DNA of 39,473 nt from Clostridia bacterium (GTDB taxonomy: Bacteria; Bacillota; Clostridia; Christensenellales; Aristaeellaceae): positions 1 through 39,473 of the forward strand of contig JAGBFR010000023.1 in NCBI GenBank assembly GCA_017936375.1, given 5' to 3'. Shown here piece by piece: positions 1,675 to 31,190 of the stretch; positions within the stretch are counted from its first letter, which is position 1, and the number at the start of each line of letters is the position of its first letter. A program made the translations under genes and the position numbers. The notes under the pieces were generated by a model, which saw nothing but the letters and a program-made list of their open reading frames with translations, did no database searches and was not told the DNA's origin.

Positions 1675-1731
1675 GCGGGGGAGAAACGCCATGTGAGCAG
1701 ATAGATACACATCGGTTTTCTTGCGGAGATA

Positions 1732-1785
1732 AAGCCTCCCTTGTGCAAAGGGAGGTGGCACGGCGTGAGCCGTGACGGAGGGATT
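1732..1785 (-). repeat. left inverted hairpin repeat of DUF559 unit
   Basis: Two-hairpin palindromic repeat in reverse orientation relative to the copy at 2134-2182. The outer stem is CTCCCTT/AAGGGAG and the inner stem is CACGGC/GCCGTG. It ends immediately before the ATG of the DUF559 gene. Confidence 0.75.
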
Positions 1786-1787
1786 GT

Positions 1788-2156
1788 ATGCAGTCCAAGC
1801 ATAATAAACAACTGGTTCCATTGGCGAAACAACTGCGTAAAGAGATGACAAAGGAAGAACGGCATCTCTGGTACGACTTTCTTCGTGGCTATCCTATTCG
1901 GTTTTCCCGACAGAAGGTATTGGGAAAGTATATCGCAGATTTCTATTGTGCTGAAGCTAAACTGGTGATTGAATTGGATGGATCGCAGCATTATGAAGCT
2001 GAGAATATGAAAAGGGATGCGGATCGTACTGAATTCCTGAAAGGATATGGGTTATCGGTTCTTCGTATTGCCAATATAGATGTGTGCAGGAATTTTGAAG
2101 GGGTATGTATATATATTGATGAGGCAGTGAAGCAATCCCTCAGTCAGCTTCGCTGA
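1788..2156 (+). CDS. DUF559-domain endonuclease-like protein
   Basis: A 122-residue protein with the DUF559 core: N-terminal basic helix (LAKQLRKEMTKEERHLWYD), then FSRQKVLGKYIADFYC, then LVIELDGSQHYE. DUF559 belongs to the restriction-endonuclease-like superfamily and is related to the Vsr mismatch endonuclease. The D of IADFYC and the E and D of VIELDG are the likely metal ligands. The start at 1788 follows GGAGGG inside the left repeat, and the C-terminus KQSLSQLR and stop codon lie in the right repeat. Base composition is markedly lower in GC than flanking genes, consistent with transfer. It may nick DNA; whether it mobilises the surrounding repeats is untested. Confidence 0.85.
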   Translation: MQSKHNKQLVPLAKQLRKEMTKEERHLWYDFLRGYPIRFSRQKVLGKYIADFYCAEAKLVIELDGSQHYEAENMKRDADRTEFLKGYGLSVLRIANIDVCRNFEGVCIYIDEAVKQSLSQLR

Positions 2157-2182
2157 CAGCTCCCTTTGCACAAGGGAGCCTT
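2134..2182 (+). repeat. right inverted hairpin repeat of DUF559 unit
   Basis: Two-hairpin repeat in forward orientation with inner stem GTCAGC/GCTGAC and outer stem CTCCCTT/AAGGGAG. The stop codon of the DUF559 gene falls in the inner hairpin. Related copies lie at 9457, 9565, 21780, 21889 and 31141. Confidence 0.75.
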
Positions 2183-2240
2183 GGGGTTGGGCGCAGGAAC
2201 GACAAGCCGCACGATGACGATGCGTCGTCGTGTTTTTTCT

Positions 2241-8427: not shown

Positions 8428-8522
8428 GTTTGTTATGTAAATCTGAAAAGCATCGGCCTCGTTCGCAAAGGAAAGAGATTTGCGGTACTTGGTCGGTGAT
8501 GCCGCCGGCAGCATGCCGGTTT
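8428..8522 (-). ncRNA. riboswitch-like leader, second candidate guanidine-IV
   Basis: Minus-strand leader of the PNPOx gene. It begins with the 31-base block identical to 2288-2318. It continues with a stem closed by AAATCT (8476-8481) and AGATTT (8439-8444) that encloses GAGGCCGATGC, and ends with ATAACAAAC (8428-8436) directly before AGGAGGT. Compared with the MATE leader the loop sequences have changed but the pairings and spacing are kept, supporting a ligand-binding RNA. The distance to the ribosome site suggests control of translation or of a short terminator. Confidence 0.6.
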
Positions 8523-8563: not shown

Positions 8564-9163
8564 TCAGTCCATGATGAGCTTCTTGAGCGGCACGCTGATG
8601 CGCTTATAGAGCAGGATGGTCAGGACGGAGGTCAGCGCGCGGGAGAGGAGATTGAAGGGGATGATGGAGTAGAGGACCATGGTCAGCTTGCTGTTGATGG
8701 CCGGGATCAGCTCGGAGCACATGCCGATGATCGCATCCCACTGCATGCCAAACGCATTCATGAAGAACGGGAAGATGATGTAGAGATTGGTGAAGACGCT
8801 GGTGATGACGGTGACGATGGTGCCGATGACGATGCCGGTGAGCGCGCCCTTCTTGGTGCGGTGCTTTCTGTACCAGAGGACGGCGGGCAGCACATACGCC
8901 ACGGAGAGCAGGAAGGCCTGCAGTTCGCCGGTGAAGGCGGTGGAGGTCGGCTTGAAGATGAGCTTTAAGAGAATCTTGACGGTGATGATCTCCATCGCGC
9001 CGGCCGGGCCGAGGATGAAGCCGCCGATGAGCTCCGGCAGGGCGGAGAAGTCAAGCTCCGCGAACGGGGAGAGCGGCGTGGGGAAGCTGAGGAACATCAG
9101 CACGAAGGCGATGGCGCCCATCATGGCGGCGAGGGTGAGGCGGCGGATGCTGTTTCTTTTCAT
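8564..9163 (-). CDS. ribU: ECF transporter S component, riboflavin-specific RibU
   Basis: A 199-residue membrane protein with about six hydrophobic segments, the size of ECF S components. The N-terminal RLTLAAMMGAIAFVLMF contains the A-x-x-x-A helix that docks to the ECF T component. FPTPLSPFAELDFSALPELIGGF is typical of RibU, as is the later KILLKLIFKPTSTAFTGELQ segment. It captures riboflavin or related flavins at the membrane and needs the shared EcfA/A'/T module, which is not in this window. Assignment is strengthened by the FMN riboswitch directly upstream. The ATG at 9163 follows CAGGAGGAAAGAAC. Confidence 0.93.
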   Translation of the reverse strand: MKRNSIRRLTLAAMMGAIAFVLMFLSFPTPLSPFAELDFSALPELIGGFILGPAGAMEIITVKILLKLIFKPTSTAFTGELQAFLLSVAYVLPAVLWYRKHRTKKGALTGIVIGTIVTVITSVFTNLYIIFPFFMNAFGMQWDAIIGMCSELIPAINSKLTMVLYSIIPFNLLSRALTSVLTILLYKRISVPLKKLIMD

Positions 9164-9216: not shown

Positions 9217-9256
9217 AGGAAACCCGCCGGCTGCGCCCGCAGCCGATACACAAAAA

Positions 9257-9370
9257 GTCTTTTCCCATCCGGACTGTACCGTCGGTTCCGGAATTGCACC
9301 GGATCGGCCTCCGCAAGCGGAGGTTCATGGACTATACCATCGGTCGGGATTTTCACCCTGCCCCAAAGAC
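9257..9370 (-). ncRNA. FMN riboswitch (RFN element)
   Basis: The minus strand shows the classic RFN sequence order. It starts with GTCTTTGGGGCAGGGTG and AAAATCCCGACCG, then GGTATAGTCC, a variable GC-rich arm, and CCGATCCGGTGCAATTCCGG. It finishes with ACGGTACAGTCCGGATGGG and the closing AAAGAC. It would repress ribU expression when FMN is plentiful. Confidence 0.97.
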
Positions 9371-9394
9371 CATTCAATTTTCACTTCTGAGTCT

Positions 9395-9423: not shown

Positions 9424-9456
9424 TAGGGAATGATGCGCGCGCTGCAGCGCGGGGTA

Positions 9457-9610
9457 CTCCTTCCACCAGCCTGACGGCTGGTCCCCCTCCCTCCCGGAGG
9501 GAGGCTTGTCGCGTGCTGCTTGGGCAGATCAGCGATGCAGATTTGCTGAGCGACGCCTCTTCAGGGCTCCCTCCGGGAGGGAGCTGTCGGCGCAGCCGAC
9601 TGAGGGAGCC
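9457..9610. mobile_element. composite hairpin MITE-like element, copy 1
   Basis: A 154-bp noncoding unit: a forward two-hairpin repeat (9457-9508, stems CCAGCC/GGCTGG and CTCCCTCC/GGAGGGAG), a 56-base core, and a reverse two-hairpin repeat (9565-9610, stems CTCCCTCC/GGAGGGAG and GTCGGC/GCCGAC). The core contains GCAGATCAGCGATGCAGAT, which matches the core of the element at 21780-21941 at most positions. No protein is encoded. Confidence 0.6.
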
Positions 9611-9665
9611 TGCGGGAGGAAGCGCCTTGGAAACCAAGACAGATGGGCCTTGTGCGCGGCGCTGC

Positions 9666-14865: not shown

Positions 14866-15029
14866 GGCGCAGAGGTATGAGGGCGGGGTGGGCACCGTAG
14901 CCGAGCGCGCCCGGTGGGCGATGAAGCGAGGCGGAGCGTGGGAAACCGCAAGGAGCGGCAGGATGCCGCGACTATGCGGGCTTCCCGGAGGGGCCTATAA
15001 AGGCTGCCTGCGAAGCAGGCTGTAACCCT
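14866..15029 (+). repeat. 160-bp intergenic repeat (family B), copy 1
   Basis: The 107-base core (14890-14996) matches 29267-29373 at about nine bases in ten, including GCCGAGCGCGCCCGGTGGGC and CCCGGAGGGGCCT. It ends with a hairpin GCCTGC-GAA-GCAGGC and GTAACCCT. A truncated family C hairpin repeat start (GGGAACCTCATCCGTC) lies just before it at 14834-14850. The rest of the 344-base gap up to 15095 shows nothing else recognisable. Confidence 0.75.
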
Positions 15030-16864: not shown

Positions 16865-16899
16865 TCGCATAATCGCCTGACGGCTCAGCCCGCTGCGGC

Positions 16900-16953
16900 G
16901 GGGACCTCATCCGTCTGCCCTTCGGGCAGCCACCTTCCCCATAGGGGAAGGCA
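16900..16953 (+). repeat. two-hairpin repeat (family C)
   Basis: Contains ACCTCATCCGTC, hairpin TGCCC-TTC-GGGCA, then CCACCTTCCCC-ATA-GGGGAAGG. Between here and 17050 is a reverse fragment of family B (16972-16990) and a family C tail (17018-17039). Confidence 0.7.
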
Positions 16954-17049
16954 ATGATTCCCCACGCTCCGCCCGCTCTCATCCGCCACAGGCGGCGCGG
17001 GCTCCAGTGCCTCTCAGGGGAAGGCTTTTGGGTGACGGACATCGCAAAC

Positions 17050-17100
17050 CAAAAGCCCTCCCCTGGGAGGGGAGGGTGCCCCGAAGGGGCGGGTGAGGTC
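17050..17100 (-). repeat. two-hairpin repeat (family C), reverse copy
   Basis: Reverse orientation: GCCCTCCCCT/AGGGGAGGG outer stem, GCCCC-GAA-GGGGC inner stem, then GGTGAGGTC. Together with the forward copies it fills most of the 435-base gap 16729-17163. Confidence 0.65.
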
Positions 17101-17163
17101 GCCGCGAAGCGGCGCAAATAACGATCCTACAAGCTCTCTTGATGGGAAGTTGTGACGGAGCAA

Positions 17164-21672: not shown

Positions 21673-21779
21673 GGAGATCGGTCCTTTCTGTGGGTGTTGA
21701 TAAGAAAGGGGAAGGCGTACCGGCAGCCTGGCATGCTGAATGACCCAATTTGGCTGATTCACGCAACGGCAGCGCCCGC

Positions 21780-21941
21780 AGGCTCCCTCAGTCTGCCCTC
21801 CGGGCATCCAGCTCCCTCCCGGAGGGAGCTTCAAATAAGTGACGCATTGCAGATCGGCGCTGCTGATCCATCATGGAATGAGGAGACGAACCTCCCTCCG
21901 GGAGGGAGGTGGCATCGCCAAAGGCGATGACGGAAGGAGCC
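21780..21941. mobile_element. composite hairpin MITE-like element, copy 2
   Basis: A 162-bp noncoding unit arranged like 9457-9610. It consists of a forward arm (21780-21832, stems TGCCC/GGGCA and CTCCCTCC/GGAGGGAG), a 56-base core with GCAGATCGGCGCTGCTGAT, and a reverse arm (21889-21941, stems CTCCCTCC/GGAGGGAG and ATCGCC/GGCGAT). It occupies the middle of the 501-base gap between moxR and glf. The remaining 21942-22092 has no recognised feature. Confidence 0.6.
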
Positions 21942-22092
21942 AGCGGGAGGGAGCCCTACAAGGATTACATGGATTGCACTTGTGCAGAGAGGGAACAACG
22001 CATCAGGCAAAATACACTACCCTAAAGATAACACACGACCGCCGCACATACAAGCCGCAAAACGCAGCGACTGAGCAAAAATGGATTGCGTG

Positions 22093-29240: not shown

Positions 29241-29405
29241 GAGCGCGGAAGCAGCTTGGGCGGGCTGGGCACCGAAGCCGAGCGCGCCCGGTGGGCGAAG
29301 CAGCGAGGCGGAGCGTGGGGAACTGCAAGGAGCGGTGGAACACCGCGACTATGCAGGCTCCCCGGAGGGGCCTGAACAAGTGGCATCGAAGATGCCGACA
29401 GCCCT
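29241..29405 (+). repeat. family B repeat, copy 3
   Basis: Runs from GAGCGCGGAAG through the 107-base core (29267-29373) to a terminal hairpin GGCATC-GAA-GATGCC and CAGCCCT. The terminal stem differs from that of the other two copies but still pairs. Confidence 0.75.
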
Positions 29406-29433
29406 GTATCGGGGAACGCTCCGCCTGCGGGCG

Positions 29434-29494
29434 GGAACCTCATCCGTCATTGCCTCCGGCAATGCCACCTTCCCCTCACAGGGGAAGGCTTTTG
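29434..29494 (+). repeat. two-hairpin repeat (family C), full copy
   Basis: ACCTCATCCGTC, hairpin ATTGCC-TCC-GGCAAT, then CCACCTTCCCC-TCACA-GGGGAAGGCTTTTGGG. With family B it fills the 317-base gap 29221-29537. Confidence 0.75.
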
Positions 29495-31127: not shown

Positions 31128-31140
31128 ATGCGTATGATGA

Positions 31141-31190
31141 AGCCCTCTCAGTCCCCTTCGGGGACAGCTCCCCCACAGGGGGAGCCAAGA
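31141..31190 (+). repeat. two-hairpin repeat (family A)
   Basis: CCCTCTCA, hairpin GTCCCC-TTCG-GGGAC, then CAGCTCCCCC-ACA-GGGGGAGCC. The stems differ from other family A copies but pair fully. Bases 31191-31339 contain nothing recognised. Confidence 0.65.

Follow-up and report, generated by a model that had tools for sequence, protein, structure and literature searches.

The window analysed here, a stretch of 39,473 nucleotides from a Clostridia bacterium (assembly GCA_017936375.1, contig JAGBFR010000023.1), carries a small gene of the DUF559 family lying between two inverted, two-hairpin repeats. Repeats and gene probably make up a mobile unit resembling the REPtrons of REP-associated tyrosine transposases (RAYTs; REP, repetitive extragenic palindrome) but built on a Vsr-type nuclease, and the protein would cut and spread the repeats. 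Judged by sequence comparison, the repeat, DUF559 gene and inverted repeat form a unit that occurs entire or not at all, the type of repeat follows that of the protein, and gene-less repeats are far commoner in genomes with a DUF559 gene than in those without. On balance, DUF559 is predicted to act on its own repeats. The features of the unit, by window position, are:

1731..1787, + strand: upstream two-hairpin repeat (covariance model, 64.4 bits; single-strand folding; direct reading), comprising hairpin S1 (~1734-1756), hairpin S2 (~1757-1776) and the purine tail GGAGGGATTG (1777-1786), which faces the gene
1788..2156, + strand: DUF559 open reading frame (ORF) (Pfam match; Vsr-like fold)
2129..2183, - strand: downstream repeat, inverted relative to the upstream one, tail facing the gene (covariance model, 59.4 bits; folding)
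1731..2183, + strand: putative mobile unit of 453 bp (homology of related copies elsewhere stops approximately at the outer repeat edges)

The ORF, read directly from the window, encodes 122 aa and matches the Pfam family DUF559 (PF04480) with an E-value of 2.3e-29 and 101.9 bits, against a curated cut-off of 20.6. Its fold is Vsr-like and homing-endonuclease-like, matching that of the I-Bth0305I catalytic domain, which bears out the relation to Vsr nucleases put forward in an earlier note on this DNA. Residues D51, E62, D64, H68 and D77 are invariant in an alignment of 32 DUF559 proteins, and the window protein is not a HUH Y1 tyrosine transposase. The earlier note had also described inverted two-hairpin repeats around a low-GC gene, with the left repeat supplying the Shine-Dalgarno sequence and the right one the last codons and stop, and each of these points was confirmed. 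Direct reading, folding and a covariance model (R1, built from 34 aligned repeats) agree on both repeats, which form two hairpins as single-stranded DNA (z -5.45 upstream, -3.52 downstream; 0 of 200 shuffled sequences equally stable in either case). The upstream repeat ends in ...GACGGAGGGATTGT, directly adjoining the ATG at 1788, and because its end abuts the start codon, the GGAGG within it (1777-1781) is a Shine-Dalgarno-like stretch of the ORF. The downstream repeat overlaps the ORF end and codes for the last eight codons (KQSLSQLR) and the TGA stop (2154-2156). The gene core (1800-2120) has a GC content of 40.5%, compared to 62.9% for the whole window. An Rfam search of the repeats gave nothing at gathering scores. 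The motif GTAG is absent from both window repeats and is found in 2 of the 34 aligned repeats, inside a hairpin; the foot of the repeat is the purine tail.

Matches to PF04480 occur in 21 of 60 related genomes, the window's own among them (genomes are numbered G, loci L). In 17 of the 21 the gene is the small DUF559 (E-value 1.5e-22 or better), while four genomes with a long frame (G012, G014, G048, G050) were counted as negative. The small gene is patchy among the relatives, with up to three copies per genome, as in G000. A first set of 30 loci was reduced to 26 by dropping four long-frame ones; a second set of 79, from the best 80 of at least 560 confirmed relatives, is a sample of close relatives that shares a few loci with the first (L024 is identical to L033, and L010 and L031 are one site).

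Without recourse to any repeat model, the 200-bp flanks matched each other in inverted orientation with a score of at least 30 at 49 of 77 DUF559 loci (two of the 79 were too short), compared to 11 of 858 ORFs taken from these contigs as controls; one of these 11 was another DUF559 gene (L054) and one a GIY-YIG gene (L093). Direct flank matches occurred at 23 of the 77 loci and 17 of the 858 controls. A profile, built from the 150 best covariance hits within the same loci it then scored, placed a repeat within 200 bp of the gene in 73 of 80 loci (the 79 plus the window), on both sides in 45 and on one side in 28, leaving 7 without; among 828 control ORFs the corresponding numbers were 2, 66 and 760. 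The tails point inward at 35 of the 45 two-sided loci, outward at 4 and in the same direction at 6, giving an inverted pair around the gene at 39 of the 80 loci. After thinning to less than 80% protein identity, 56 of 63 loci had a repeat (both sides 32, one side 24, none 7), so the expectation that most DUF559 genes sit by such repeats holds among these loci. The zone reaching from 60 nt inside to 50 nt outside the gene edge holds 41 repeats on the upstream side (4.7 per kb) and 57 on the downstream side (6.5 per kb), about 60 to 80 times the background of 0.07-0.09 per kb beyond 1.6 kb. For six of the seven loci missed by the profile (L091, L093, L098, L099, L102, L103), the covariance model places a repeat within about 200 bp, and for the seventh, L078, there was no such repeat among the hits listed. 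A cruder two-hairpin scan, superseded by the profile, found a module within 300 bp in 94 of 105 loci, on both sides in 37. At L070, the leader and first codons occur once more immediately past 2062, downstream of the DUF559 gene, before the sequence changes, as though copying had broken off.

The linkage extends beyond Clostridia. A tblastn search located DUF559 in 38 plasmid or megaplasmid records, some chromosome-sized, and 19 distinct loci in 19 of them were hand-picked for spread and annotation, 12 being examined at short range and 12 with ~24 kb of context (three of the latter from one Sphingomonas strain), with five common to both. In the long-context set (Alphaproteobacterial, Deinococcal and Cyanobacterial, hence non-Firmicute), inverted flanks scoring at least 30 were present at 11 of 12 loci, compared to 5 of 194 control ORFs, and the sole miss, Picosynechococcus, has direct flanks scoring 113. 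At short range, 7 of 12 loci have inverted flanks (L243, L244, L246, L247, L248, L250, L251); the repeats of Neisseria are direct, scoring 163, and the remaining four loci are one-sided by eye. The annotated non-Clostridial loci are intergenic and at differing sites, although no search for introns was made. Units lie between annotated operon neighbours such as sufB/sufC, GatB/YqeY and dnaG, paaD/paaZ, and NAD(P) transhydrogenase genes, and in Deinococcus hpa clusters they are at three different places. A separate observation concerns L256 (~1460-2622), where, compared with A. brasilense, Azospirillum argentinense carries an extra ~1.16 kb within the repeats upstream of DUF559, perhaps an insertion sequence in a REP.

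From the comparison of copies it is near certain that repeats and gene travel together as one unit, because copies at different sites are mostly homologous as far as the outer limits of the repeats, and the repeats are missing from three empty sites. Among 89 pairs of related copies at different sites (from 32 loci; the pairs are not independent), homology stopped 50-64 nt ahead of the start codon in 59 pairs and 25-39 nt beyond the aligned end in 46. In the window, these limits correspond to the outer repeat edges, 1731 and 2182/2183. The boundaries at the repeats that the earlier note had envisaged are therefore mostly found, and the empty sites lack both gene and repeats. In G006, a DUF559 gene separates a membrane-protein-like gene from an obgE-like one (names assigned by eye), and these two neighbours are adjacent in G011 with no repeat between them; the left junction is at the tail of the outer repeat, and about 10 host bases are lost. 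Deinococcus sp. QL22 is devoid of the paaD-paaZ unit and its repeats, and the unit of Sphingobium RAC03 is missing in Sphingobium V4, TomTYG65 and Novosphingobium humi. No empty site for the window's own unit was found among the relatives; the ORF downstream of it, presumably MATE-like, aligns in G005, G016, G003 and G019 without the upstream gene, and the G005 locus stops before further comparison is possible. The matched spans of a Sinorhizobium mirror repeat vary among strains and do not narrow down to the repeat.

The stems of the repeats tend to go with particular DUF559 proteins. The exact stem of the window gene's repeats, CTCCCTTGTGYAAAGGGAG, is found in 7 of the 60 genomes. G000, G033 and G057 have just two copies each, both flanking DUF559, while two of the 5 copies in G005 and two of the 4 in G029 are near DUF559. 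It is also present in two genomes without a DUF559 hit, G018 (2 copies) and G035 (41), and some copies in G035 form inverted pairs ~145 bp apart (e.g., C5:15179-15341, C12:23606-23949). Stem CTCTCCCTNNGGGAGAG is at DUF559 in 12 of its 13 copies in G003, G010, G013 and G026, whose DUF559 genes carry it, and is dispersed in ten other genomes, where DUF559 is of another type (G005, G006, G009, G030) or lacking (e.g., G011, G008). In G005, five of the seven sites of stem CTCCCTCNNGAGGGAG adjoin DUF559 genes. The similarity of two proteins is a predictor of how similar their repeats are (Mantel r 0.65, 0 of 2000 permutations; 94 of 105 loci with repeats, near-duplicates included), and the partial r was 0.665 once host 4-mer composition was controlled (68 loci, 0 of 1000).

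Repeats are also associated with the gene at the level of genomes. R1 hits (E-value of 0.001 or less) occur in all 17 genomes with small DUF559 and in 10 of the 43 without (p 2e-8). Removing two repeats per gene leaves gene-less repeats in 15 of the 17 (p 5e-6), and within the genus the counts are 9/9 against 9/20 (p 0.005). The family is dispersed in general, with at least 93 R1 hits in G000 (counts were reported up to 93), though in G000, G033 and G057 the exact stem CTCCCTTGTGYAAAGGGAG is only at the gene. R1 finds ten repeats in the window, the pair at the gene and eight others:

9451..9508, - strand: gene-less repeat, left member of a tails-outward pair (covariance model, as for all that follow)
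9562..9614, + strand: gene-less repeat, right partner of 9451-9508
16899..16955, - strand: gene-less repeat, left member of a pair
17052..17104, + strand: gene-less repeat, right partner of 16899-16955
21777..21833, - strand: gene-less repeat, left member of a pair
21887..21945, + strand: gene-less repeat, right partner of 21777-21833
29432..29492, - strand: solo repeat
31137..31189, - strand: solo repeat

The three gene-less pairs have their tails outward (-,+), and the pair at the gene has them inward (+,-). Gene-less repeats claimed previously at 9457, 21780 and 31141 are thus real; they belong to different subfamilies from the gene's repeats, since the stem CTCCCTTGTGYAAAGGGAG has only two copies in the source genome assembly, both at the gene.

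The tail of the repeat follows a mirror rule. In the 150 best covariance repeats, the tail after S2 equals the reversed 3′ (purine) arm of S1. Across 39 distinct arm-tail combinations, arm G corresponds to G in the tail at 194 of 205 positions; for arm A the tail has A 54 times, T 35 times and G once, and for arm C it has T in 14 of 17 cases. The mirror match was 7.62 of 8, compared to 5.62 with permuted tails (0 of 5000). When one tail was taken per distinct arm (20 arms), the mirror score beat all permutations in 20 samplings with a mean z of ~7, against ~3.8 for the alternative of a direct copy, and an earlier test on a looser hairpin set went in the same direction (0 of 2000). Hairpins followed in one orientation by 2-3 nt and a perfect mirror lie near DUF559 in Neisseria, Sinorhizobium, Azospirillum, Deinococcus, Sphingomonas, Qipengyuania, Photobacterium and Pseudanabaena, and over all 80 hairpin readings (both strands, free offsets) the mean mirror score was 0.714, compared to 0.657 for permuted ones (0 of 500). 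The perfect-mirror scan found no case in L242, L244, L249, L260, L263 or L268; in L242, L244, L260 and L268 an S2-like hairpin appears by eye to act as linker. Likewise, the strict scan with a 2-3 nt linker had no match in the window, because S2 serves as the linker there.

The antiparallel purine motif includes the triplets G.GC, A.AT, T.AT and T.CG, and the mirror rule is what an intramolecular triplex would require; the triplex itself is possible rather than probable. The main alternative, a G-quadruplex, could explain much of the G-run symmetry, and the mirror reading is preferred, tentatively, because the A positions match too. In the mechanism proposed here, DUF559 would recognise the folded single strand of its own repeat (hairpin or hairpins plus purine tail), with the tail, mirroring the purine arm of the first hairpin, perhaps occupying its groove as a purine-motif triplex. 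The protein would then nick or cut the repeat at the tail side, and the nicked unit, or a gene-less repeat or pair acting in trans, would enter a new intergenic site by copying or joining, perhaps where the lagging-strand template is exposed. In this scheme, the non-autonomous members would be the solo and paired repeats.

Neither Vsr nucleases nor I-Bth0305I are known to be bounded by an inverted repeat family of their own. No description of linked repeats was found among the literature listed for DUF559/PF04480 (3hrl, NGO0050), and no published link of DUF559 to repeats, or of GIY-YIG to REPs, appeared in titles or the starts of abstracts, a survey that mostly left aside subscription journals. 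RAYT genes are described in PMC2817692 as always flanked by two inverted REPs. The DUF559 system shares with REPtrons, as portrayed in PMC2817692 and PMC8266576, a small nuclease gene between inverted palindromic repeats and dispersed gene-less repeats and pairs; it is a further likeness that the repeat type goes with the enzyme type. It differs in its protein (Vsr-like and PD-(D/E)XK-type, where RAYTs are HUH enzymes, i.e., TnpA_REP, IS200/IS605-like) and in its repeats (two hairpins, or one, plus a mirror purine tail, without a GTAG foot). TnpA_REP is described as mostly single copy in PMC8266576, whereas DUF559 is patchy with up to three per genome. The analogy with RAYTs drawn in the earlier note therefore stands for architecture, a gene between inverted repeats, but not for descent. 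Because enzyme and repeat foot differ, this is not a RAYT system, but it would work like one if DUF559 does cut and spread its repeats.

PMC3733652 sorts REPs into two super-families, GTAG, tied to RAYTs, and CGTC, apparently without a dedicated transposase. Read against this account, S2 of repeat type A has on the other strand a build resembling that of CGTC REPs (CGTC, palindrome, (G)CCA), which is absent from types B and C. The DUF559 repeats add a longer S1 hairpin and the mirror tail, and GTCATTC-type repeats here accompany GIY-YIG genes instead. At L093 (4862-5146), inverted GTCATTGCGAGC repeats enclose a GIY-YIG gene whose neighbours look recF-like and gyrB-like by eye. GIY-YIG matches were found in 98 of 291 genomes of the class, with 14 places at an E-value of 2.4e-26 or better; 12 of these (L269-L280) were examined, and flanks scoring at least 30 were inverted at 5, direct at 9 and either at 11, the repeats being of the GTCATTC/GTCATTGCGAGC CGTC type. 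Seventeen distant GIY-YIG genes (18 taken, the long-frame L297 left out) had no inverted and no direct flank matches (0/17 each; p 2e-5 for direct). We take the proteins of L093 and L269-L280 to be COG2827-like and the distant ones to be UPF0213-like. As a partner of the DUF559-type repeats, small GIY-YIG was rejected (inverted flanks at 0 of 6 relatives' loci; L154 direct, 33). COG2827-like GIY-YIG and CGTC-type repeats may form a second pairing, possibly supplying the missing enzyme for CGTC REPs. A bolder reading, which we regard as doubtful, is that there are at least three unrelated bacterial REP systems (GTAG/HUH RAYT, CGTC/COG2827-like GIY-YIG and mirror-tailed/DUF559), with DUF559 recognising a triplex as address rather than a sequence or plain hairpin.

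A number of observations weigh against a mobile unit driven by DUF559. Homology ends short of the repeat edge in 28 of the 89 pairs upstream and 25 downstream, and beyond it in 2 and 18 (nine of these 18 overshooting by ~150-160 nt). The G006/G011 site is the sole finely resolved junction, and it shows a repeat at the left end only, loss of host bases and no target-site duplication, the other empty sites being too diverged for that comparison; the RAC03 site also gained another gene and a duplicated segment. By profile, 28 of the 80 loci are one-sided and 7 have no repeat, tails-inward and tails-outward pairs both occur, and 6 loci have both repeats in the same direction. None of the 12 sites of stem CTCCCTCNNGAGGGAG in G000 is at any of the three DUF559 genes there, and G010 has 29 such sites with a DUF559 of a different type. 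Where two DUF559 genes share a genome (ten pairs, protein similarity 0.40-0.92), the mean repeat similarity is 0.64, so a host effect on repeat similarity is possible. Repeats can also persist without DUF559, since G035, G011, G008, G016 and G018 have 71, 54, 27, 17 and 14 R1 hits with no small DUF559 detected. Finally, C5 methyltransferases co-occur with DUF559 as well (12/17 against 14/43 genomes, p 0.01), which is what a role in Vsr-type repair predicts.

This co-occurrence is part of the case for DUF559 being cargo, retained as a Vsr-like mismatch-repair nuclease while the repeats are moved by a different enzyme. In Caulobacter, the DUF559-domain protein VsrA (CCNA_02930) is required for the SOS response that follows loss of the methylase ScmA (PMC12907096). 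Five of the 17 DUF559 genomes, however, have no C5 methyltransferase match (G000, with three DUF559 genes; G005; G006; G010, 96% complete; G033, 100%), and repeats specific to the protein type are not expected of cargo. A RAYT was rejected as the mover: Y1_Tnp (PF01797) is present in 25 of the 60 relatives but unmatched in the repeat-rich G006, G009, G010, G030 and G035, and just one of ten Y1 loci (L144) reaches the inverted flank threshold, with a score of 31. A passenger gene is accordingly quite unlikely. A homing-like selfish gene would instead cut double-stranded targets and have the unit copied by recombination or repair, leaving the repeats as conserved unit ends that DUF559 does not spread; this is unlikely in view of the gene-less repeats that persist in 15 of 17 DUF559 genomes after subtraction, and of the diversity of insertion sites, among which no shared target was noticed, without a systematic search for one. 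Homing enzymes usually keep to one allelic site. It is highly improbable that the repeats are expression parts selected at DUF559 genes (ribosome site, terminator) rather than mobility ends. The window's tail does give the Shine-Dalgarno-like stretch and hairpins come after the stop, but just 2 of the 828 control ORFs have repeats on both sides, neither repeats nor gene are present at the empty sites, and the tails-outward loci L103 and L023 have no tail ahead of the start codon.

Other elements were noted in the window. A different dispersed element of ~97 bp (2284-2380; 8428-8522, - strand) recurs in many relatives of the genus among the matches listed and has no Rfam match at gathering scores. 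A direct repeat of 116 nt with 89% identity lies at 14881-14996 and 29258-29373, and an FMN riboswitch (9253-9374, - strand) is upstream of ORF 8564-9163, presumably a subunit of an ECF-type transporter.

Short palindromic repeats are common non-coding elements of bacteria. If DUF559 does act on its own repeats, the family would gain a role, REP-type selfish DNA would have evolved at least twice, on unrelated nucleases, and it would become directly testable what spreads these repeats, the mirror-tail rule offering a precise structural prediction.
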